NCBI RefSeq assembly: GCF_963675165.1
Contig: NC_087392.1
Location: 2,991,001 to 3,055,000, forward strand
Source of the DNA: Halichondria panicea
Taxonomy: Eukaryota; Porifera; Demospongiae; Suberitida; Halichondriidae
Length of the DNA: 64,000 bases
Reading direction: 5' to 3'
Shown here: positions 1,922 through 16,900 of the stretch, piece after piece
How the letters are laid out: the number at the start of each line of letters is the position of its first letter
How positions within the stretch are numbered: the stretch's first letter is position 1
Translations under genes and position numbers: made by a program
The notes under the pieces: model-generated
The model's database searches: none
Told to the model about the DNA's origin: nothing
Seen by the model: the letters and a program-made list of their open reading frames with translations, nothing else

Positions 1922-2031
1922 CTTTTAGCCATTGAAATCTTCTCCCAGCCATTGAAGCTACCACAAACAAATACTTCCTTGCCTCCTCCATCCCAGGAGA
2001 ACTTGTGACTGAAATCCTCAATGCTAGCCAT
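1922..2031 (-). pseudogene. Isolated paralogous first exon with N-terminal half of a CBM48 domain
   Basis: This minus-strand exon is the same length (110 bases) as the first exon of the CBM48-PARP gene at 13657-13766 and nearly identical to it. It runs from the ATG at 2031 to a GT donor after 1922. It encodes MASIEDF, then FSWDGGGKEVFVCGSFNGWE, the first half of an AMPK-beta type glycogen-binding module; a Pro of the other copy is Ser here. I found no matching second exon between this point and position 1. It is therefore either the start of a second CBM48 gene continuing left of the window or an orphan exon left by a partial duplication. The upstream flank is also duplicated. Confidence 0.7.
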
Positions 2032-2913: not shown

Positions 2914-5900
2914 TTACTGGTATTTGATCAGATAAGCTGGATAAGCCTTGTCGTTATCATATGTCATGAACACTTGAGATCCGTTTGTGTCACCAGTCAC
3001 AGAGTCGTAATCCATATTAGTAAAGTGTACTTTTCCACCCACAGATCCACGCGGTTTTTGAGGCGGCTTACGAAGGCTGTTATTTGCAACACAATTGTAG
3101 CTATCCCCAGTGAGAACTTTGACGAGAAACATTTCTTTGCAACCATCAGATGTTGTGTAGGAATAAGTGTTGGAATAGTTTGCATTGACCGCGAAGTAAT
3201 TGGCTGTTCCCCACATCCCCCTGTTACTGTACCTCATATCGAACCCATTCTCTCCTTCGTAGATGAGTTTGGGATCGTTGCTGCGGGTACCATGAAAGAG
3301 CTCTTTTTCATTGACATTTCCATCGTTCTTCAGATGCAACCTCTTCTTGTGGGCACAATAGGCTTCCCACAACCAGGTGTTTTGGATCCTTGAAATGGAT
3401 ACAATACGACTAGTAGACAGTGTAGCTTTAAATTTTTGCTCCACCCTGGTCCATTCGGGAGTTCTCGGTGACACTGGGAACACCTCTGTGGTTAGATTTT
3501 GGTCTTGCCATTCAGGTGGAGTGGAGATCTCTGCGTCAGCACGGTCCAGTTGATGGTCGATGATGAGTTGATGTACTGTCTTCACCACAACTTGCACATC
3601 ACTATTGATACCCTCCAGGGTTACCAAACTCTGTTTTTTAGACCCAACCTGGCTCTCAGTGACACTGAAACCAACTTGGTGCTTGAGAGCAACATTCTCA
3701 AGCTTGCTGGAAAATTGATGAGATAAGGCAAACCTAATGTTAATGTCCTCTGTCTGCATATAGCTGTCTAGTTTCTTTTTAAGTTTGGTTTTGGCAGCCT
3801 CCAGAGAGTCCCTAGGTCCACGCAGGGTTACACACACTTCCTGCTGGCCAGATGAAGGGTCACATATTTTGGGTGCAGGAGTAGCAGGAGGGTTAGGCTG
3901 ATCAGGCCCCTCTCTGCGCTGTAGCGGCCTCTTGTAATTGGTAGTCGTGTTAATCTGACACATACTGCTGAAATCGAATGTGTACACAGTACGACCAATT
4001 TTCAGGACACCAGGTACACCATCTCGATACATTTGCTCAATGCTCTGATTGTTAGAGGAGTTGTAAGGGGAAAAACCGCTCTTATCGTCCCTGTAGAACC
4101 AATGAGCAGTACCTCTGCTGCTGGGTGGGGAGGAGTTAGCGTCATATTTCACAACTCTTCTGTGACCCGTTTGCACATTAGTCTGGATCATTGTAGGAAA
4201 GTCAACACAGTACATCTGACCGTGAAGGGTTAAATTGCAATTGCCTTGTGGGCTTACAGAGTAGACTGTGGACAGCTGTTGTGAGATTTCACTGGTGTAA
4301 GGTGTGTACGTGCCGAGATCATTTGTCCAAAACCAGGCGCCACTGGGAGCAGAGATCACAGGGTTCGCATTAGCTGGCTGGGAGATATTTGATGCAAGAA
4401 TAGCACCAGAGTCAAAATATGAGCAGAAATCATCCAATTCTGATTGTGCAAACAGCACAAATCTGACAGTGTGAAGTGTTGAGCTGGGATAGGTCTGGCA
4501 GAAATCCTGTACAGCTTTCAATGATGCTTTGGCACATAAACTTGTAGGCACAGCAAAGATGTCAGCACTGATGGCGGGAAAAGATATACTTTCGTACTGA
4601 GCAGAGCTGGCAAGAACCAAACTTTTGTACACAGTGATATAGAGTAGTGATTCCTCTCCCACTTTCCCCCCTTTCCAACGAGGTCCAACTGCATGAACAA
4701 TGACTTTACAAGGCAACTTGCCGGGTCCTAAAGCCACTACCTCTCCTGCCTTTAGCTTCATATGGTCTCTCACGTAGTCATCACTTTCTGTCTGAATGGT
4801 TTGTCCTCCAGCCTCAAGGATAGCCTTTGCAAGTCCACCGATATGTTGCAGGTCCTCATTGGCAGCATTCACAATGACGTCGGTCTGTTCGCTGACAACA
4901 CTACCCTTGCATATCTCTAGCTTGAGGCATCTGGCAGTGCTGCTTGGCTGAATCATGGAACTGCGAACTACTTTATTGGGCCTAGTTGATCTTGGGTACG
5001 TACACACCACACACAGCTCCTCTTGAAGTTTATATGTAAACTGCAAAAAGTTGGAGGTTGATAACACCGATCGAAACATGGGTTTGACTGTCAGCTGCTC
5101 TTGCCCGACACTCAATTCGATTGGTCGAATCACTTGCGTTATCAGTGGTTGTTCAGCAACAAGAATGGCTGCTGGAGTGCCACTCAGCTTTAGGCCACTC
5201 TGAGGCTTCTTGAGGGGGTAAACTTTGATTCTACAATTCCGAGCAATGCTGTTAGCATGCGAAAGGTATGTAGTGTACTTAAAGTGTGAGTTCAGTACTA
5301 GTCCAACAACCTCATTATTACTGGTAAGGATCTTGCTGGTCATGGTGCGCTCTCCAAGGAACTTCTGTATTTCCTCCTCAGCTGTGTCTAGTTCCTCACT
5401 GCAGTCCTCAGGAGCAGTTAACTCAGCCTCAAAGATGGTAGATTGACATTTTATACAGAAGTACACGGCTAATGGCCACAGAAATTCTTTTTTATCTTTT
5501 CTGAGGGTGTTGGCTGCAATAGGCGTGAGCGGAATAGTTTTTGTGATAGTGGCTGTTTGCGAGATCTCTTCTCCAATTTGAAAGACTTCAGATTCCTCAC
5601 CCACAACATAGATAGTGGTTGTAGTTACTTCATCCTTCGGAATTGATTGTTGTCTGGCCTCCTTACTAATGTCTATGACAATGTTACAAGTTCTTTCCTT
5701 GTCTTTCTTGATTTGATCCCACCGTTTTTTCCACATATGGTAGTATTTGCTCTCATAGTTAACTTCGAACTTACCAGTGGTGATGCCGTTTTTGATTCCT
5801 ACCAATTTTTCGTACACTGGCTCCACACTCTTAATTGGACCCCTGATGAGAATTGAAAACATTTCAGACTCACTCTTTGATCTTACGATACGCAGTTCAT

Positions 5901-8900
5901 TACAATCTTCCTTAAGTTCTTCGAAGTCTTGCTTGTGTCTTATAAAGAGCTGTTGGTGGGTGGTGAGGGGAATGAATTTGGTTATCTCATGACGGCTGTT
6001 AACTCTGTCTAGTATCTCAGCTGCACAATCACAAACTTCCTTCTTTGTGAGACCATGGATCATCAGAAAATCATCACGGTTGATGATTCTAACACGATAA
6101 CTCATCTCAAGCTTAGATTTGATCTCGTTAAGCCTGATCGACCTTGCTGCTCCCTTGCGTAGAGTTAGTTTCCTATGAGAACTTTCAACTTGCTCTAAAC
6201 ACGAGCACACAGTCTGAAACACCTCGTGATGCTTGCTACAGATTATCACGCTAATCTCTGTTTCATCTCCTTCAGATCGTGACCGTTGTTTATGAGCAGG
6301 AGCTTTTTGCTCCTGTATTATCCATATCACTTCATCTGACACAGGCTTCAAAACTACATCTTCAATTTGCGATACAAATCTTCTGTTTTGATAGACAAAA
6401 CGGCGAGTGGAGACTTGAGAGAGAAAATCGCCCCTTATTAGTGCCTGTGCTGTTTGAATAGCTTGGGGATTTCCTTTGAGGAATACTGTGCTTTTTCTTA
6501 CAATAAACTCTGCAGAAAGAGAGGACAATTGTTCCCGTGCTTTGTGGTCTGTCTTGTGTAGGTAGATAAGGTATGCAGTTTCCTCAGGAGAGCATTGAAC
6601 AGGGTTTTTCTGAGAGGTAGCTGTTTCCATTCGTTCCCTTAGGGCAGTACATACACTTGCACATTCCTGTTGCAAATAACTCTTAACTAAAACATTGGAT
6701 TCCTTTTGTTCTATGTCCACGAATGGTGGGTTCAATGTTGAGATGAGTTTATCGCATACCTCGCTTGATATATTGGTAATGTTCTCAGTGAACAATCCTT
6801 GTTTAAGGACAACACTAGCGGTCTCAGTACTAGATTTGGACAGGGAGTATAGGACAACACTAGGTCTTGTATCATGAGAGAAAATACACACTTGTAGATT
6901 TTCAATACAGAATCTCTCTTTAGCTGATCTAAGAAGCGGTTGTGCAAGACTGATATTCACTTCCAAAGTTTTGATACCACCCAGGGCTGATTCCAGTTCC
7001 TGCCTAGCAAATTGGAGATTTCTGTCGTCGCCCACAAGTCCAATGAAAGTAGACGACTCATCATAGCCCGTTAGCCTTACATCGTACTTCTGCTGGAGAA
7101 TGCTGGGTAGGTCTTGTCTGAGAGCAACCAGAGAGGTTTTTTTGTGCCTGTAGGATGAGTGGTATCACATAATTAATTATGAACAGTGTGTATTATAGTC
7201 ATAATCACTCTTTAATTGCACTTATTAAATACATTGCTACCCACCTGTCCTGTATGGTGAGCTCCCGGTACACCTCGCCAGTCACTCTACTGTAAGCACT
7301 GGCTATGGCTTCGGGCAGTCCAGCGAAGAATATAGTTCGACTAATCATGTCCTCCCTGATGTGTATACCTGGGTTGGTCTTGTACGGCTCAATAACATCC
7401 TGATAAAGCATTCGACCTGAAGGTCCAGCAATCATCAGACGATTCCAGTCAGCTGGGGAGAGTGTGAGACTGGATTCCGATCCTGGAGGGTGTGGGTGTG
7501 TGATTCTAGAAGATTGCAGGGAAGTAGGCACCGTCACTGATGGTGGAGGAAACGACATTGAGGAATGAAATTGAGGAGGTATGATCTCTTGAAGGTATAG
7601 TGTATTTGCTGCTGGAGTAGGCACACTGTGCTGATGATCAAATGGGATCTTTACTTCTTTATTCACTGTTCTTCCTAAGGTGATTACATTGGCCTGGATA
7701 GCTTTACCGAGAAGAGACATTCCATTCAGTCGTTTTACAACATTGTGTGCATCCTCATTACTGGGGAGATACAGCAGAACTCTCGAAGGAGGTGACATCA
7801 GCCGCTCGACTTTAACCCCTGATACCCCAACCATTGTTTTTAGTTCTTCAGCAGAAACAAGAGAGTCCACATGGTCTAATGAGACTGTCCACTGACTGCC
7901 AAGAGCGAAAGAAGGCGTGGGGGCTTGAGGTACAGAGGGCTTGATGGATTCACCTCCCTTCAGTGATACCTTGATGGTGTAACCATCTAGTACCTTCTTA
8001 TCAAGACCATGAACAGCTTTCTGTGCAGCCATAAGGGTGCTGTATTGTGCCAATGCATATCGATTCTTTGACTCAAAGATTTTAGGCGGTTCAGGCAGTT
8101 CACCAAATATTCTAAGACGTTCAACCAATTGTTCGTTAGTTAGGCTTGGAGGAAGACATGTAAGCTTCACAGTAAACTGCTGTTTGGTGTTGTATGAGGG
8201 AGTGGCTGGCACATGAATATGTGGGGTTGATTCCTCGCTATTGCTGGGCCGTCTTCCTGCAGATGATTTCATCAGAGAAGGTGCAGCCTTCTCGCCTTGT
8301 TTGCAATGTATATTCAATTTGAAAACACCAAGCAACATAGAATCATTGTAAACCCTAGCTGCTTCATCAGCCAGCTCAGCATTGGTAAACGTGACAATTG
8401 CATAGCCTTTCGACTTTCGTTGCTTGTCTCTGATGACCTTTGCCGACGAGAAGCGACCCTTGTAACTTGAAAAATGTTCCGAAATTTGTTTGTTAGTGAT
8501 TTTATCAGGCAAAGGTGGGTTAGAGTTGACAAACAATTGACATTTCTCTCCCGACAATGAGCAAACAGATTCAGTATCTGAATTATCTTCTTCAGGAGCT
8601 ACTTGACGAGGGGGGCCTATGATGGGGCTATTCGCTACGGGTGACTGATCTTCTTTGGCTAGATTTACTTTAATTGGATACGTGTTCAGCAGGAGAGTTT
8701 TAGCCATTTTTTTGATAGCTGCCTCAGCCGAGATTCGATTTGAGAAAGTAATAAAGCCAAATCCTTTTGACTTTCCGCTCTCTTTGTCTTTGATTATATC
8801 AACCCTGACTATTTTCGCTTTGAATGACGAAAAATGATCCTTTAGCTGATTATCAGTCACAAACTTCGGCATAGATCCAACAAAAACTTTTGTGTTTTTC

Positions 8901-11900
8901 TTCTTTGATAGTGGTTTTTCTTTCTCTGAAGTTCGCTCTTCTTTTGTAGAAGATCGTTTCCGTCTTTGAGTGCGATTTTGCTTCTGAACACTCAATTTAT
9001 ACTTTCCAAGCAATAGAGATCCATTGAGCATCAAGATGGCATCTTCCCCTACTTGGGGAGGGGTCACGCAAATAGTATAGTAGCCTTTACCGTTTCGAGA
9101 AGTATTCCATTGCATTCTTGTGACATTGTCACTCAAGCCGTACGACTGAAGTTGCTTCGAAAGGTTTTCTTTGAGGATATGTGGTGCCTGGAAACACTTC
9201 ACTAACAGTTTAACGCATGGCTGTCTTGTAGAGAGGTCCATACTACTTGCTGTGCTCTCTGTATCTGATTCTGAATCCTCTTCCTGTGGGTCTTCTGTAT
9301 CAATGGTCATCTGTACAAACAATGAAGGAAGTATATACAATCACACCTTTGTGTTGGATGCGCAAAATTAGTTTTTGTATGTCAGCTACTACACACTACA
9401 TCCATACATGTACATTGTCTACGTACACGTATACGTTGGGATATTCTCAATTTGCAATTTTAAGTGGCAGATTATTGCCTATAATATTACAATAATTATT
9501 ATGATTATGTTTCCGACAAGAACGTACAAAGTGGATGTCCTCGGAAGAGGCATGACTATCTTGAGACATTGCACTAGACACTGCAGACACTGTGGAACAA
9601 AACATTGAGGTTAAAACACAATAGGATTAATTGTGGCAACTTATACATACCTTCAGGTATCCAGCACACATTGTTAAGAGCTCCACTGTCATTAGTCGAT
9701 CGCTCCTGTAGTGAACCACATGATCACAATAAGGAGGTGAGGCCATACAGCAATTGAGTAAGATACCTGATTAACATCAAGCATCCATTCTTCATCTACC
9801 ACAAACTTGTAATCGTGTCTCCCTTCAGATAGAGGTACAGTGGCGGTAAACACACCCAACTTGGAACGACTGTAAGTGATACAAATACTTAATTCAATTG
9901 CTGGACTTGATTGGATTATTATAACAATACATGTAGATAGAGACAGTGATTATTAGCACCACCAAATTAAACACACCCAACTTGGAACAACTGTAAGTGA
10001 TACAAATACTTAATTCAATTGCTGGACTTGATTGGATTATTATAACAATATATGTAGATAGAGACAGTGATTATTAGCGCCACCAAATTAAAACATGCAC
10101 ATCTGCTTGTAATACTTTTGGTCAATGAAAGCCGCAGGTGCTGATGCCTCGGTGGAGATGCCAAAGCTATATAACATAAAGCTACTAATAGCTTTTATAC
10201 ACATGACAAACATTTTTGCATTAATTAATTCAAACACAAAGAGTGGTAATGATCGACCATGATTGTTGTTAAAAACGATCGATGCTAAGTTTAAATGGCT
10301 GCATCAGCAGAGCCTTGCAGCTCTCTTCTCACTCTTGCAGCTACCAATAGCTAGCGTTTTAGTGCAGAGCTAACTACTAAGTAGAGTAGCAACACTCGGT
10401 AAACAAATTTGGCTACATACTCTTCTGAAAAGGCTGCAATGGCATTCCAAGTAAGCAAAACTAGGCAGAACTCGAGAACGAAGCATTGTTTTGCACATCC
10501 ACGAATTAAAATCCAAGAAAACATGACTAGAAGCCTATAGAAACTCTTACTTGTACTTCATTGATCCTTGAGCAGCTGTAGCGGTCTACACACACACACA
10601 CACACACACACACGCAGACACACAAACACACTACCGTATACCTCGTTTGCGCATGCGCAACGAGGCATAATAATATAAGATGTGCATGTATATAATAATA
10701 AATATACATGTAGATCCACAAGCTACATGTAACTGAAATAGCTTTTTAACGACTGGCAATGACCAAAAGCAAGGGATGCAAATGGATCTGGGCTACAAAG
10801 TTAGATTCAACACGTCTATTTGTATTGAGAAAAGCCCTTGATAACCACCTAAGCAAATCTATACAGTAGCTAACCATTGCTCCAATGACATATAACGTAT
10901 GACACATCAAGAAAGCACCGAGTGCGGGAATGCCTTTTGCCTCAGATTAGGTACGACACCACTAGCTACCTAATCTGCTACCGTATACAGTAGAACCTCG
11001 ATTATTTGGACACCTTGGTTCCAGAGGCAGGCCGGATAACTGAATGACCTGAATGACCTAATAATCGAGTGGATAAACCATGCCTTGATCCACCCACTTA
11101 ATTGATAAACAGCAGTACAAATTTAGTGCACGTGGGGGCGTCTGCGCATGCATATGATAAACATACCCGTGTCCATGGTAACAGCTGTTAATTGCGCATA
11201 CGCATTAAGGGACACACCTATTTTGCAGATAATCGAGGTTCCAAATATTGGAGGGCCGGAAAATCGAAGTTCTACTGTAGTGCCAAATTCAAGGAGCATA
11301 ATTTTCACCGTTTTACGCAGATTGACCTTGAACCTCAAAAATTATGCTCCTCAAAATTTGGAATCAGGAATTGTTTACTTCCGGTATTGTAAATACAATT
11401 TTTTTCTCACAAATTTGTCGCTATACGATAATCAATTCACTGTAGCTTTTTCAGCTAAACAGTTCGTCATACAACTTACTGCTGATTCAGCAATTTACGG
11501 GTGACTTGATCTCAATTCCGTAAGGCAACCCCGACACTTAATTAAACAACATACTGAAGTACATGCACACTATTAAACATTAATTTTGCTTTGGATAGAA
11601 TCTATAATTTTTTACAATGTATTCGGGTCGTACCCATGCACATAAGTCCCACATGTAATCTATGCATCTTTATCCAAGTACAGTTAAGCCTTGATTATCC
11701 GAACACTTGGTGTCCCCACCTCATCCGGATGGCTGAAATATTCGAATATCATCTAAATCAGCCACGCCCATCAATAAATCACATGCAAAATCAGCGAACA
11801 ATGTCCAAAGCTCTTACAAATGTACAACATGTAGTCTTGGACATAATGCATCAGTGGACAGAACAAGGTAGCAAGTTATACTGTTAGGCTAAGCTGAAGC

Positions 11901-13766
11901 GTTTAGCTGCTTCTGCTAAGTCAGAACACTTCAACCACATGGGACACTTAATGCGCATGTGCGAGTAGGTATTTGCTATGAATATCATCGGATCTTTCAT
12001 CCGGATAATCGAGAATTCGGATGATCGGGATTCGGATAATAGACCACAAAGGACAAACAGGGTCGATTAACATATATGGATCTAGATGTACGTGAGTGAT
12101 CCCAGAGGTTCAGCTGGTCAAAACGTCACATTATTTTGTAAAGGTAGGTATAGTCCCTAAATACATTCCATCATAGAAACGGATTAGGAGATCTGCGTTT
12201 GACCACTTGACTTAGACTTTGAACCACAAATATCATATAGAAGCCTTTTTCCTAGGCTCATTCTTGTCTAATATACTGGGCGTTTAAAAATGCGATTGCA
12301 TGGTTGTTAATTAATCATGCACTGCAGTATTACTCAGAATCTGGGTAATCGTGTTACGTTAGTAACACGTTATTAATATGAATATGAAAACATTTACTTG
12401 GAATTTGTTACTGTCTCAATGCTGTGAAGCTATGGCTTATAATTATGTTTTCTTGCATTGGTCGAGAAGACTATTAAAGCAAGAGGAGGCTCCTTCACCT
12501 CTTTAGACTGACAAGAAATCTAGGTACCTTAATTGCTCCAGCTTGTAGCTATACTCATACTAGACTATGATGCCAGAGAGTATAGCAGCAGAGAACCTCT
12601 CTTTTGCGTAGAGGTGGATGAGAGGCTTTTGATTCAGGTCCTCTCGACCAATACAAATAAACAACAGCTTCACGAAACTCAGTCGATCGACCCATTGAAA
12701 CAGTAACTAAAATCTGGTTGTATATGAACTAGATCTAGTTTACTAAAGAATCGTTGAATCTTGACATGGCACCCCAGACATAAAAGTGAGGGGCAGGACC
12801 AGTTGGTGTACGACCGAGTGCTAACAATGATGAAGACAGTGATGGACAAACGTACGTCAACGATTGAGGGGAACGCACACCTAATTTACCGCAACTTGTG
12901 GCAATGGACGTTGCACTTTGCTGAGGTAGTACGATTATTCTGGTTCAACAGACACCAGGCCCCTAGCGTTACAATAGAATGGCCTGGAAAAGAGGCTACG
13001 GTAAAAACCGTTTGCTCATGAATATTCACATTAATGTGAAATCGGTATTATTCTGTATGAAAAGTATCAATCTTCACAATGTCTTTCAGTGGAAGCTCTA
13101 AGTTACTAGAAACAACAAACTAGTAGTCAAAATAAACTTCCAAAAATACTTTTAGCTGCTAACTTTCCATACTGGAGGGAAGCTCTTTTCAGGCCAAGAA
13201 ACACTCACAAAACACTTAAAATGGCTGTCGGAGCCAAGGAAAACAGCCTTCTGAGAGCTTTCAGTAGCCAGTAAAAGTGTCTATTTGATCCATAAAATGA
13301 CTACTGCGTTTCAACTGGACTTTCAGCTTATTCCAGTTGCTCACAATTAAGTTTAACCGTATCCATAGGCGAGACGAGTCCGTCATCTAGATATAGCTCA
13401 TGAATAATTATTGAGCAAATGGTTGACCTTAAGCGCTTGTACACACTCATACAATGGCTTAGTGATAATTATGTATGTCATTGTGCTATACCTTACTATA
13501 TCGACCTTGTGGAAGCAAATCGTTGCCATAGGGTGTTGGGCGGAGCCAAACCCTGGACGCTCACGGTGTTGGGCTCCGCCAACAAGGTTAATGGTAGGTG
13601 GACGAGCAGCACTATGTTCATACCGATATACATTTCTACATGATACTTGTGTCTACCTTTTAGCCATTGGAATCTTCTCCCAGCCATTGAAGCTACCACA
13701 AACAAATACTTCTTTGCCTCCTCCATCCCAGGAGAACTTGTGACTGAAATGCTCAATGCTAGCCAT
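2914..13766 (-). CDS. CBM48-RRM-KH-macro-WWE-PARP fusion protein (PARP14-like)
   Basis: Six exons on the minus strand: 13766-13657, 9869-9767, 9705-9651, 9589-9528, 9310-7245 and 7147-2914. All introns are GT-AG and the phases join perfectly (6630 bases, 2209 residues). Residues 9-90 form an AMPK-beta type glycogen-binding CBM48: FSWDGGGKEVFVCGSFNGWE, then HDYKFVVDEEWMLD and ALNNV. The glycogen-contact Trp, Lys, Trp and Asn are kept. RRM-like domains follow near 145, 252 (VFVGSMPK...KGFGFITF), 365, 487 and 582, then a KH-like region. A macro domain lies near 1538 (VIVNAANEDLQHIGG), with WWE domains near 1733 and 1813. The PARP domain is near 2045-2209, with FHGT, NANYSNTYSY and QVFMTYD. The third triad position is Val rather than Glu, so mono-ADP-ribosylation is expected. 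Vertebrate PARP14 has RRM, KH, macro, WWE and PARP domains but no CBM48. If translation began at 9310, the CBM48 part would be a separate short gene. Confidence 0.8.
9849..10086. repeat. 119-base tandem duplication at an exon border
   Basis: Two head-to-tail copies (about 9849-9967 and 9968-10086) differ at only a few bases. The unit contains the first 20 or so bases of the second CBM48 exon and its splice acceptor, so a decoy acceptor lies 119 bases upstream of the true one. Only the copy at 9869 continues into open coding sequence. Confidence 0.8.
10124..10670. mobile_element. MITE of the GCCTCGGTGG / GAGGCATAAT family, copy 1
   Basis: One end reads GCAGGTGCTGATGCCTCGGT and the other reads TGCGCATGCGCAACGAGGCA. 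The same roughly 520-base unit recurs at 15389-15907, 27299-27821 and 56096-56615. Shorter or rearranged relatives occur inside 24203-24851, 53829-54604 and near 44300. It lacks coding capacity. This copy includes a (CA)n microsatellite at about 10589-10612. It lies in intron 1 of the PARP gene. Confidence 0.75.
10988..11277. mobile_element. Tc1/pogo-type MITE
   Basis: The ends are CAGTAGAACCTCGATTAT and the complementary ATAATCGAGGTT...TTCTACTG, flanked by TA on both sides. This is the typical layout of pogo/Tigger-like MITEs. It lies in intron 1 of the PARP gene. Related elements occur at 11681-12042, 21263-21516 and 51407-51646. Confidence 0.65.
11681..12042. mobile_element. Second pogo-like MITE, diverged
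   Basis: The left end CAGTTAAGCCTTGATTATCC faces a right end with CCGGATAATCGAGAATTCGG. The repeats match imperfectly and the right boundary is approximate. No ORF of note. Confidence 0.5.
12407..12707. mobile_element. 300-base MITE with GTTACTGTYTCAATG ends
   Basis: The left end GTTACTGTCTCAATG is complementary to the right end CATTGAAACAGTAAC. Subterminal matches continue through GCATTGGTCGAGAAG and CTCTCGACCAATAC. The right half of a second copy lies at about 40009-42603, split there by a LINE insertion. Confidence 0.65.
12998..13432. mobile_element. MITE with GTTTGCTCATGAAT ends, copy 1
   Basis: The left end (ACCGTTTGCTCATGAATATT) faces a right end with ATGAATAATTATTGAGCAAA. A second member lies at 14793-15190. 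The two share internal sequence such as CCAAGGAAAACAGCC and CAGCTTATTC. It lies in intron 1 of the PARP gene. Confidence 0.55.
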
Positions 13767-13952: not shown

Positions 13953-16900
13953 ATGGATAACAAGGCTACTCTTAATCTTGATGGCAAGCATCAACTGAAT
14001 CACAGTACTGTGTATAAGTCGGCTAAACCTACCAGGTAATAAAGTAATAGAGTAGATCTGATGTGATGCATGGACTATGATGGACTATTGTATAGCTTTA
14101 AAAACGTGATGTTTGACTAATGGAATTAGCAGCGCAGTGTCCACAGGATCTACAGCTCCTTATGGGTAGCCAGTCAATCTTTAAAGAAGGTCCCGAGATA
14201 CAGGTCACTGATATGGCCTTTATATAGTAGGCATGGCAATAAAAACTTCAGTTTATTGGGGCTGTTCTTGTGTATTGTACGTGGTTAGTCTCGTGGGCCA
14301 TACATTAAAAATTGGAAAAATCGTATGGTAACTGCTATAAAAACGTGTAGGTAGATCTACATGTTGGCACATAGCCAGCCAGGTTTTTGTGTTGCAGTGG
14401 AATTACATCCTGTCATATGTGCTTCATTAATCGCAACATTTCCACATGCGTATACGGAGGAGGTACGACAGGCACGGTGCAGCTCAAGCATTAGCCTCTG
14501 ATTACACAGAGGAGTTACGGCAGGCACGGTGCAGCTCAAGTATTAGCCTCTGATTACACTCAGCAATAACACATGGCGTGGGTGTGGCGTGGGCGGATAA
14601 TTAGTGTTCATTCAGAGCTCCACCGCACTTGTCGTACCTCCTCTGATGTGTATATATATAATTATAGCCACAAGCACTCACTGTTCAGCTGCATGTACCT
14701 GGTTTGGAGCCTCGCTTCTCCACAGAAGAAATCGATAATTATAGCTACAACAAAATTAATACTGAAAGTTACATGTATGGTACTACCGTAAGACCTCGAT
14801 TTAAGGTTACGGTAAAGTGTTTGCTCATGAATATTCTTATAATGATTTTGCTATGATAGACTAACTCTACTTAACGGTCAGAGCCAAGGAAAACAGCCTC
14901 TTGTGAGCTTTCAGTAGCCTTTTTTCACAATCTTCGAGCTGCCCTGCATAATTATAGTGACGCTACAGTAGACTGTACCTAAGCTATAAGTGTCATATTC
15001 GAGCCATGAAATGACTACTGTGTTTCAGCTGGACTCCAGCTTATTCTAGCTGCTCACTATCACTAGATCTAGAAACGGTTTATCGTAACGTTAAGGTGAC
15101 CCTCCAAATAATTATGCGACTGCTCACTATCACTAGATCTAGCTCAAGAATAATTAATGAACAAACAGTTTATCGTAACGTTAAGGCGACCCTCCAAATA
15201 ATTATGCGAGACACCCTCGAGCTTAGGCAATTTTCTGACCTCTAAAAGTAGCGACAGCTGTGTTTGACTATTATTTTGTAATGTCGCGTCGCGTCCTAAA
15301 TGGAGGTAAATGTAGTCACATCCTAGCCTCGATTCTAGCCCTCTGGAAAATAAGCGACCTGAAATTGAGGCATGTAGACTTACCTCCAATGAAAGCACCG
15401 CAGGTGCCTCGGTGGATGTGCCAAACCTACATAAAGCTACTAGCGATTGCTAATGCACACATGATATCATGATGCACATTTATTTGCTACACGCAGGCAG
15501 AACATCACAGGGAAACTCAGACCATGATTGTTGTTATGATGCCAAAAGTCTAGCTGCTGCATCAGTAGAGCCTTGAAGCTTTCTTATCACTCTTTCAACT
15601 ACCAATAGCTATTGTTATAGTGCAGAGCTAACTACTAAGCAACACTCCATGGGCAAGTTTTGCTACGCACTGTTCTGAAAAGGCTGCAATATGGCATTCC
15701 AAGTAAGCAAAACTAGGCATAACTTGAGAACCAAGCATTATTTTTCAAATCCACGAAGTAAAATCATGACTAGAAGCCTATAAAAACTCTTACTTGCACT
15801 TGATTTATCATTGAGCAGTTGTAGCAGTCTACGTACACACACACAGATAGACAGACTCACACAAACACACTACTGTATACCTCGCTTGCGCATGCGCACC
15901 GGGGCATAATTATAATAGGACCCTCTAATATGTGTCGCCAGGACTTCAACATAATGTTTCAACCTCTAAAAGAAGTAAACTCTGCAATGCAGTGCAGGCA
16001 ATGAAATTTTTACTCACGAAAATCACCGTGTTCGAATTGAACGGATTTTTTACCCCATAAAATGACCTGCTCAAGATTTCATCTAGGATTAAAAGTGGGG
16101 GGGGGGGGGTTTGGGTAAGCATACCCACACCGCAAAATGTTTGGCCACTCCCACATTTGTTGACTACACACCCTATTACATGCTAGTGCATCACAGTAGA
16201 TCTAGTTACATATTGCACATCATAAACAGTACTACTGTGATGATGTCATCCACAACATTTGGGGGGGAGGTTCACCCCCCCCCCAACTAGATGAAACCCT
16301 GCCGCTATACAGTAGTATGATAGCCTTGACGCACTCTACAAGAGACTCTTCGTCATTGCTCAGTAAGAAGAGTGATGTAAGAAGAGAGATGTACCCTACA
16401 GCTCAATTATCCCTACTGAAGGCATCCATTATGGCGATTAGAGGTGCCAGGTCATTAAGACACAGACCAGCTAAGATGTTCTTTTTGAGCCAGTCGAGAC
16501 ACCTTCTACATGCATTATTTATATTGTAGGACCTTGGATACCACAACATTTCACATGACCGTGTATTGTTGAATTAGCGTCATTCAGCATTGTTGAATTA
16601 ATATTATGCTTGTTTGTTTCAACTTTGACCATCGCACACTTACATGTAGTCTGCCCATGCAATAAAAGCTAGTTTTTGTGGGTAGTCATGTGACTACTGG
16701 AAGCTGAGTGGTAGTTTCAACAACATTCTGAAACTCTACACGAAAACCTGGCTATAGTCTAGACTTGCTGGCCACCCACATCCACAAGGGAAGGGGCTTG
16801 TCAACTGCCTATCATTCAATTGTTCTCATTACCTGACTCTGGCATGACCATGCAATCACAGTGCAAAAGTAAAAAGCATTTCACGTGGAACCAGAGGAGG

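Follow-up and report, generated by a model that had tools for sequence, protein, structure and literature searches.

The 64,000-nucleotide (nt) stretch of the Halichondria panicea genome analysed here (the window, C16:2991001-3055000, in a genome of 131 Mb and 39 contigs) contains a probable six-exon minus-strand gene, gene A, whose predicted protein joins an AMPK-beta-type carbohydrate-binding module (CBM48) to the domains of a PARP14-like ADP-ribosyltransferase (ART). Two further genes bear on its interpretation: a tandem paralogue, gene B, whose first exon lies within the window, and a CBM48-RRM gene on contig C12, called the C12 gene below. Positions of the features are collected in Table 1.

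The six exons of gene A have GT-AG borders and join into a single frame of 2,209 amino acids followed by a stop codon, with zero internal stops. Exons 1-4 are 110, 103, 55 and 62 nt long and end in codon phases 2, 0, 1 and 0; their donors are GTAGAC, GTATCT, GTATGT and GTACGT, and the acceptors of exons 2-5 all end in AG. Intron 4, which separates the CBM48 head from the large RRM-coding exon, measures only 217 nt. A first-pass annotation of this DNA had proposed these exons, phases and borders, and every junction that it named could be read in the sequence, with the in-frame join giving the full 2,209 amino acids.

Table 1. Features of gene A, and the first exon of gene B, by position in the window
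Feature	Position	Strand	Remarks
Gene A exon 1	13657..13766	-	start codon, first part of CBM48, amino acids 1-36 and 2 bases of codon 37; GT donor, phase 2; PF16561 match
Gene A exon 2	9767..9869	-	middle of CBM48; AG/GT borders, 3' phase 0; PF16561 match
Gene A exon 3	9651..9705	-	end of CBM48; AG/GT borders, 3' phase 1; CBM48 match up to residue 88
Gene A exon 4	9528..9589	-	linker without domain; AG/GT borders, 3' phase 0; counterpart in paralogue B 65 nt
Gene A exon 5	7245..9310	-	acidic leader from ATG, then RRM domains; donor GTGGGT
Gene A exon 6	2914..7147	-	KH units, macro, WWE, ART domain, stop; acceptor CTACAG
RRM of exon 5	7922..8200	-	reciprocal best match of the C12 gene RRM; query residues 371-463
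KH-fold unit	5986..6189	-	model residues 320-387
KH-fold unit	5341..5553	-	model residues 532-602
Macro domain	4528..4872	-	PF01661 E 2e-25; PARP14 and PARP9 macro chains match
WWE domain	3916..4107	-	better of two stretches; PF02825 E 5.2e-29
PARP14-like ART domain	2920..3456	-	PF00644 E 1.1e-15; PARP14 catalytic chains E ~1e-28
Gene B exon 1	1922..2031	-	97% identical to gene A exon 1; ~880 bp behind the gene A stop codon

Domains were called with Pfam profiles against their curated cut-offs, and nearest chains were found by comparison to solved structures. The AMPK1_CBM profile (PF16561) matches residues 10-88 of protein A with E 1.9e-22 (79.7 bits against a cut-off of 26.8), and the nearest solved chain of this module is rat AMPK beta-1 (1z0n, E 2.1e-18). 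RRM_1 exceeds its cut-off in three stretches (E 2.3e-37), the best of them at residues 252-319 (window 8887-8684). The macro, WWE (two stretches) and PARP profiles all exceed their cut-offs as well, and the nearest solved chains to the last 665 amino acids are PARP14, PARP15 and PARP9, with E ~1e-28 for PARP14 and PARP15. The earlier observation of an AMPK-beta-type CBM48 in frame with an RRM-macro-WWE-PARP protein is upheld, and these matches go far beyond chance. Gene A is not simply AMPK beta, which sits separately in this genome on C6.

Between the RRMs and the macro domain, a structure predicted from 29 sequences for the 744 residues that lead from the beginning of exon 6 almost up to the macro domain reached a mean predicted local distance difference test score (pLDDT) of 85.7 and a predicted template modelling score (pTM) of 0.49. 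The model consists of repeated alpha-beta units, with KH matches at two places and the other places barely tested. No PARP14 chain stood among the 50 structural matches listed for it, which is not evidence against a relationship.

A catalytic histidine and tyrosine with a non-acidic third residue are expected of PARP14-like clade 3 mono-ARTs. Aligned with PARP14 chains, the ART domain of A retains the histidine and tyrosine and has valine where PARP14 has leucine. With this ART domain, a macro and a WWE domain ahead of it, N-terminal RRMs and a KH array, gene A qualifies by its sequence as a PARP14-like clade 3 mono-ART, and its product is predicted to have mono-ADP-ribosyltransferase activity.

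The same arrangement recurs next door. The remaining exons of gene B lie outside the window (C16:2984345-2979217), and the paralogue keeps all six exons and their splice borders, an open frame of 1,602 amino acids, and the exon 4 acceptor CCACAG found in A. Its exons differ in length from those of A by 0, 0, 0, +3, -753 and -1071 nt, all multiples of three. The two proteins align with 7 gaps of 1, 1, 1, 115, 134, 3 and 358 codons; the 358-codon gap takes the macro domain and the best WWE stretch out of B, and the CBM48 and ART domains remain. Introns differ at 1 of 61 aligned bases (intron 2), 13 of 49 (intron 3, with 12 gap columns), 2 of 207 (intron 4, with 10 gap columns) and 3 of 97 (intron 5). 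Because one base differs right behind the exon 4 donor, the tails obtained by reading through this donor are unlike in A and B, which fits intron sequence there. Judged from these comparisons, A and B are recent copies and give little information on age.

A second, more distant case of the same head is found on C12. A whole-genome search with PF16561 matched 10 places, which by position make up seven genes: A and B on C16, AMPK beta on C6, and a single gene on each of C13, C11, C5 and C12. Of the 59 PARP places in the genome, those of A and B alone have one of these 10 places no more than 20 kb away on their contig. The C12 gene (C12:3115452-3104263, minus strand) combines a CBM48 and an RRM with DEAD/DEAH helicase, KH_DEAH11 and IBR domains. 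Introns of phases 2, 0 and 1 interrupt its CBM48, just as they do in A, and the module continues in frame into the RRM and the beginning of the DEAD/DEAH helicase (Pfam CBM 6.8e-22 and RRM 8.5e-10 in the joined frame); the Helicase_C, KH_DEAH11 and IBR matches sit in a second, adjoining frame that is presumed to continue the first. In-frame phases from head to RRM are present in A, B and the C12 gene. Phases 2 and 0 are also seen by eye in AMPK beta and in the C5 and C11 genes, and so are inherited. The phase-1 intron just behind the module is present in A, B and the C12 gene and not in AMPK beta (again by eye), and its position is ~3 residues apart between A and the C12 gene.

When exon 5 was searched against its own genome, 10 places matched: the three C16 copies came first, then the C12 RRM (E 1.1e-8, residues 371-463), followed by C16:954069 (E 5.7e-8) and the rest, which match a different RRM. 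Conversely, the C12 N-terminus matched 18 places at E up to 1, and the best outside C12 were the RRMs of A (2.7e-9) and B (5.8e-9), with the next place at only E 0.005. The RRMs of A and the C12 gene are thus reciprocal best matches in the genome. Ahead of different effectors, the two genes thus carry the same kind of head in the same place and mutually closest RRMs. Descent of both from one CBM48-RRM protein explains this best, though short of proof, given how little the heads resemble each other and an in-frame methionine in the C12 intron that would allow a separate start. A common origin of the two heads is unsupported by the CBM48s taken by themselves: they are 36% identical, no more than with AMPK beta, and the C12 head matched C13 and C11 ahead of A exon 1.

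We consider it very likely that one mRNA runs over exons 1-6 of gene A, and that the CBM48 on a PARP14-like protein is probably a real domain architecture, new in the family. A single gene is supported indirectly by the six in-frame exons, the 217-nt intron 4, the same structure in B and the CBM48-RRM gene on C12. Chance or an assembly artefact is unlikely, as the arrangement recurs in paralogue B and in the C12 gene. The single transcript over six exons that the first-pass annotation had inferred gains indirect genomic support from B and from the C12 gene with its reciprocal best RRMs.

The locus could instead hold two genes, a small CBM48 gene ending past exon 4 and a PARP14-like gene starting at the ATG at 9310. 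Exon 4, if read through, meets its first stop at 9449-9447, giving a 136-amino-acid product; the annotation had placed this stop near 9475. Relatives with a methionine, a short leader and an RRM would fit such a pair, and so would the ATG of exon 5. The matching phases, the strong exon 4 donor and exon 5 acceptor and the gap of 217 nt all speak for splicing across the boundary instead, and B is arranged likewise. The independent CBM48-RRM gene with reciprocal best RRMs on C12 also counts against two genes, an arrangement that we regard as highly improbable.

Several observations nevertheless weigh against the proposed head-bearing gene. Exon 5 of A opens with its own in-frame ATG at 9310, and an in-frame methionine also lies in the C12 intron ahead of the RRM, where a separate start is possible. 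Among relatives, P0121 begins exactly at the exon 5 ATG, and P0045, P0098 and P0090 carry a methionine and a short leader ahead of the RRM. These starts, with the exon 5 ATG itself, make a head-less start plausible; P0122 (55% identical) starts a few residues upstream of this ATG, as judged by eye. P0045, a distant relative, is a single frame of 2,354 amino acids without CBM48, so the head is not universal in the family. PF16561 was found in none of the 120 relatives listed out of 187 (E up to 0.001), nor in 3 further ones, most of these relatives being single-exon frames in which separate upstream exons would be invisible. The 36% identity of the A and C12 heads and the order of the C12 matches, given above, count on the same side. 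Finally, exons 1-4 of A and B differ by 2 synonymous changes over 66.3 sites and 7 nonsynonymous changes over 263.7 sites; purifying selection is not evident in this ratio (dN/dS), which rests on 9 changes only.

Wider searches yielded little. Residues 1-140 of A, searched against 5.8 billion proteins, gave 0 matches among 184 candidates of ~1,215-3,866 amino acids. Viral contigs returned 1 stretch for exon 6 and 35 for the family alignment, with 0 relatives in either case, and genome contigs returned 22 stretches and 0 relatives for exon 5. The family alignment drew 474 stretches and 423 relatives from genome contigs; the best 80 of the 423 match at most residues 642-928 (the macro region) and are titled bacterial or archaeal, so these offer no outside host DNA that bears on the head junction. 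In P0123, which is distantly related to exon 5, the RRMs are preceded by an N-terminal stretch of another kind (residues 1-155), unrecognised by Pfam. The N-terminus of the family may therefore be a variable slot.

Both forms might also be made, with alternative promoters or splicing yielding a long protein with the head and a head-less one from 9310, which would make the head optional. The ATG at 9310 is in frame with both. Within intron 1 and exon 2, a 121-bp tandem duplication (window 9847-9967 and 9968-10088, 98% alike) copies the exon 2 acceptor and the first bases of exon 2; if the duplicated acceptor is used, protein A stops after 68 amino acids. No promoter turned up in intron 4, though none was searched for. 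We think it improbable that both forms are produced.

What the head might do depends on its sugar site. In rat AMPK beta-1, W100, K126, W133, L146 and T148 contact the sugar, and each mutation tested among them markedly cut glycogen binding (PMC2642990). A review (PMC6274970) states that binding was abolished by W100G and by K126Q, and that W133L disrupted it in part. At these five sites A and B retain W, K and W and have S for L146 and A for T148, so that three of the five are kept. In this genome's own AMPK beta they are W, K, W, L and S. In the C12 gene the residues are W, K, C, N and D, a loss of three of the five. With some of its glucan contacts replaced, the A head is likely to bind glycogen weakly or in an altered way compared with AMPK beta, and unaltered binding is unlikely. 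The earlier suggestion that the protein docks on glycogen is thus not supported by sequence alone, given the two replacements at sites where the AMPK beta encoded by this genome carries L and S, respectively.

The AMPK beta module also acts as a protein-protein or autoregulatory module towards its kinase. A real fusion whose CBM48 no longer binds sugar, and now serves such a role, is a rival that we hold to be unlikely, if less so than the two preceding alternatives. The change of two of the five contact residues in A, which tells against glucan targeting, points this way, as do the further C for W133 in the C12 gene and the strong effect of the corresponding AMPK beta-1 mutations (PMC2642990). 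The core of the site persists, however, since A and B retain the equivalents of W100, K126 and W133, and it is W100G and K126Q that abolish binding (PMC6274970).

On balance, and with some reservation, we lean towards gene A being one gene for a PARP14-like mono-ART that carries an N-terminal AMPK-beta-type CBM48 as a targeting module. Through this head, the enzyme with its RNA- and ADP-ribose-reading modules would be brought to an alpha-glucan or to some partner recognised by heads of this kind; its ART domain would then mono-ADP-ribosylate targets at that place.

Comparison with known systems shows where gene A departs from them. Like PARP14 (ARTD8), a clade 3 mono-ART with RRMs and a KH array (PMC10450202, PMC13224862), A has RRMs, KH units, macro and WWE domains and a C-terminal ART domain with histidine and tyrosine. 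Unlike PARP14, it has an N-terminal CBM48, one macro domain by Pfam rather than three, and two WWE stretches rather than one. The A head resembles the AMPK beta module in its fold family, its 45% identity to rat beta-1, its first two intron phases and the W, K and W of the sugar site. It differs in the replacement of L146 and T148, in the absence of the AMPK beta C-terminal region behind the CBM48 and in its attachment to an RRM-KH-macro-WWE-ART protein. Six PARP14-like proteins are described in the sponge Amphimedon queenslandica, with macro domains, WWE or RRM in some of them, and a Radial spoke 3 domain added in one (Perina et al. 2014, PMC4245714). Gene A shares macro, WWE and RRM domains with paralogues of this kind. 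The C12 gene, a DEAH11-type helicase gene, is like A in its CBM48 exons of equal phases followed by an RRM that is the reciprocal best match, and unlike A in its effector, which is DEAD/Helicase_C, KH_DEAH11 and IBR instead of macro-WWE-ART. The words "glycogen" and "carbohydrate" are absent from the main texts of PMC4245714 and PMC10450202. A literature search by titles and starts of abstracts among open-licence papers listed no CBM48-PARP protein; this agrees with the first-pass statement that no PARP10, PARP14 or PARP15 protein with a CBM48 is known.

Among the other CBM48 places, the one on C5 (C5:6900931-6905062, minus strand) comes after a KH match and two Tudor matches in frames of one strand, an arrangement that resembles a putative single gene for a Tudor-KH protein ending in a CBM48. 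On C13 (C13:1752469-1755678; L013:640-1791, minus strand), a single frame of 384 amino acids contains a CBM48 (E 4.2e-12) and a putative esterase domain (E 2.4e-20), and on C11 (C11:3073650-3075800, plus strand) CBM48 exons lie behind a NIDO (nidogen-like) frame on the same strand. A 34-residue piece at C9:4556421-4556540 (plus strand) shares 74% identity with the beginning of the RRM exon of the C12 gene and contains one TAG; it is perhaps a fragment of a similar gene. The window itself holds a 69-nt inverted repeat (1009-1077 and 1234-1302, 99% complementary) and a dispersed direct repeat (10298-10675 and 15556-15914, blocks 84-91% identical) with one copy inside intron 1 of gene A, both perhaps remnants of mobile elements.

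HOIL-1, an RBR ligase, is reported to ubiquitylate glucans. Since the mono-ART of A and B has a CBM48-RRM head in common with a DEAH helicase whose IBR domains are of the RBR ubiquitin-ligase type, one could imagine a glucan- or microbe-addressed pair for ADP-ribosylation and ubiquitination, although we find this improbable. Such a pair could be likened to HOIL-1 and to PARP14/PARP9 with DTX3L. Human PARP14 interacts with DTX3L, an E3 ligase having RRM and KH domains, and PARP14/PARP9 and DTX3L have RRM or KH modules in common (PMC13224862). By analogy, and as speculation, the C12 protein, whose head is of the same type and which has IBR domains, could be a partner of A comparable to DTX3L. 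If true, such a pair would tie the recognition of glycogen or microbial glucan to RNA-linked innate defence.

Antiviral and stress responses have been linked to PARP14-like enzymes, whose recruitment to their targets is still poorly understood. A carbohydrate-module head on such an enzyme, present in the same genome also ahead of the RRM of a helicase with ubiquitin-ligase-type domains, would give ADP-ribosylation a new input and connect glucan recognition with innate signalling in a directly testable way. If the head binds no sugar, gene A would still show an AMPK beta module put to new use, as a targeting domain of effectors that bind RNA.

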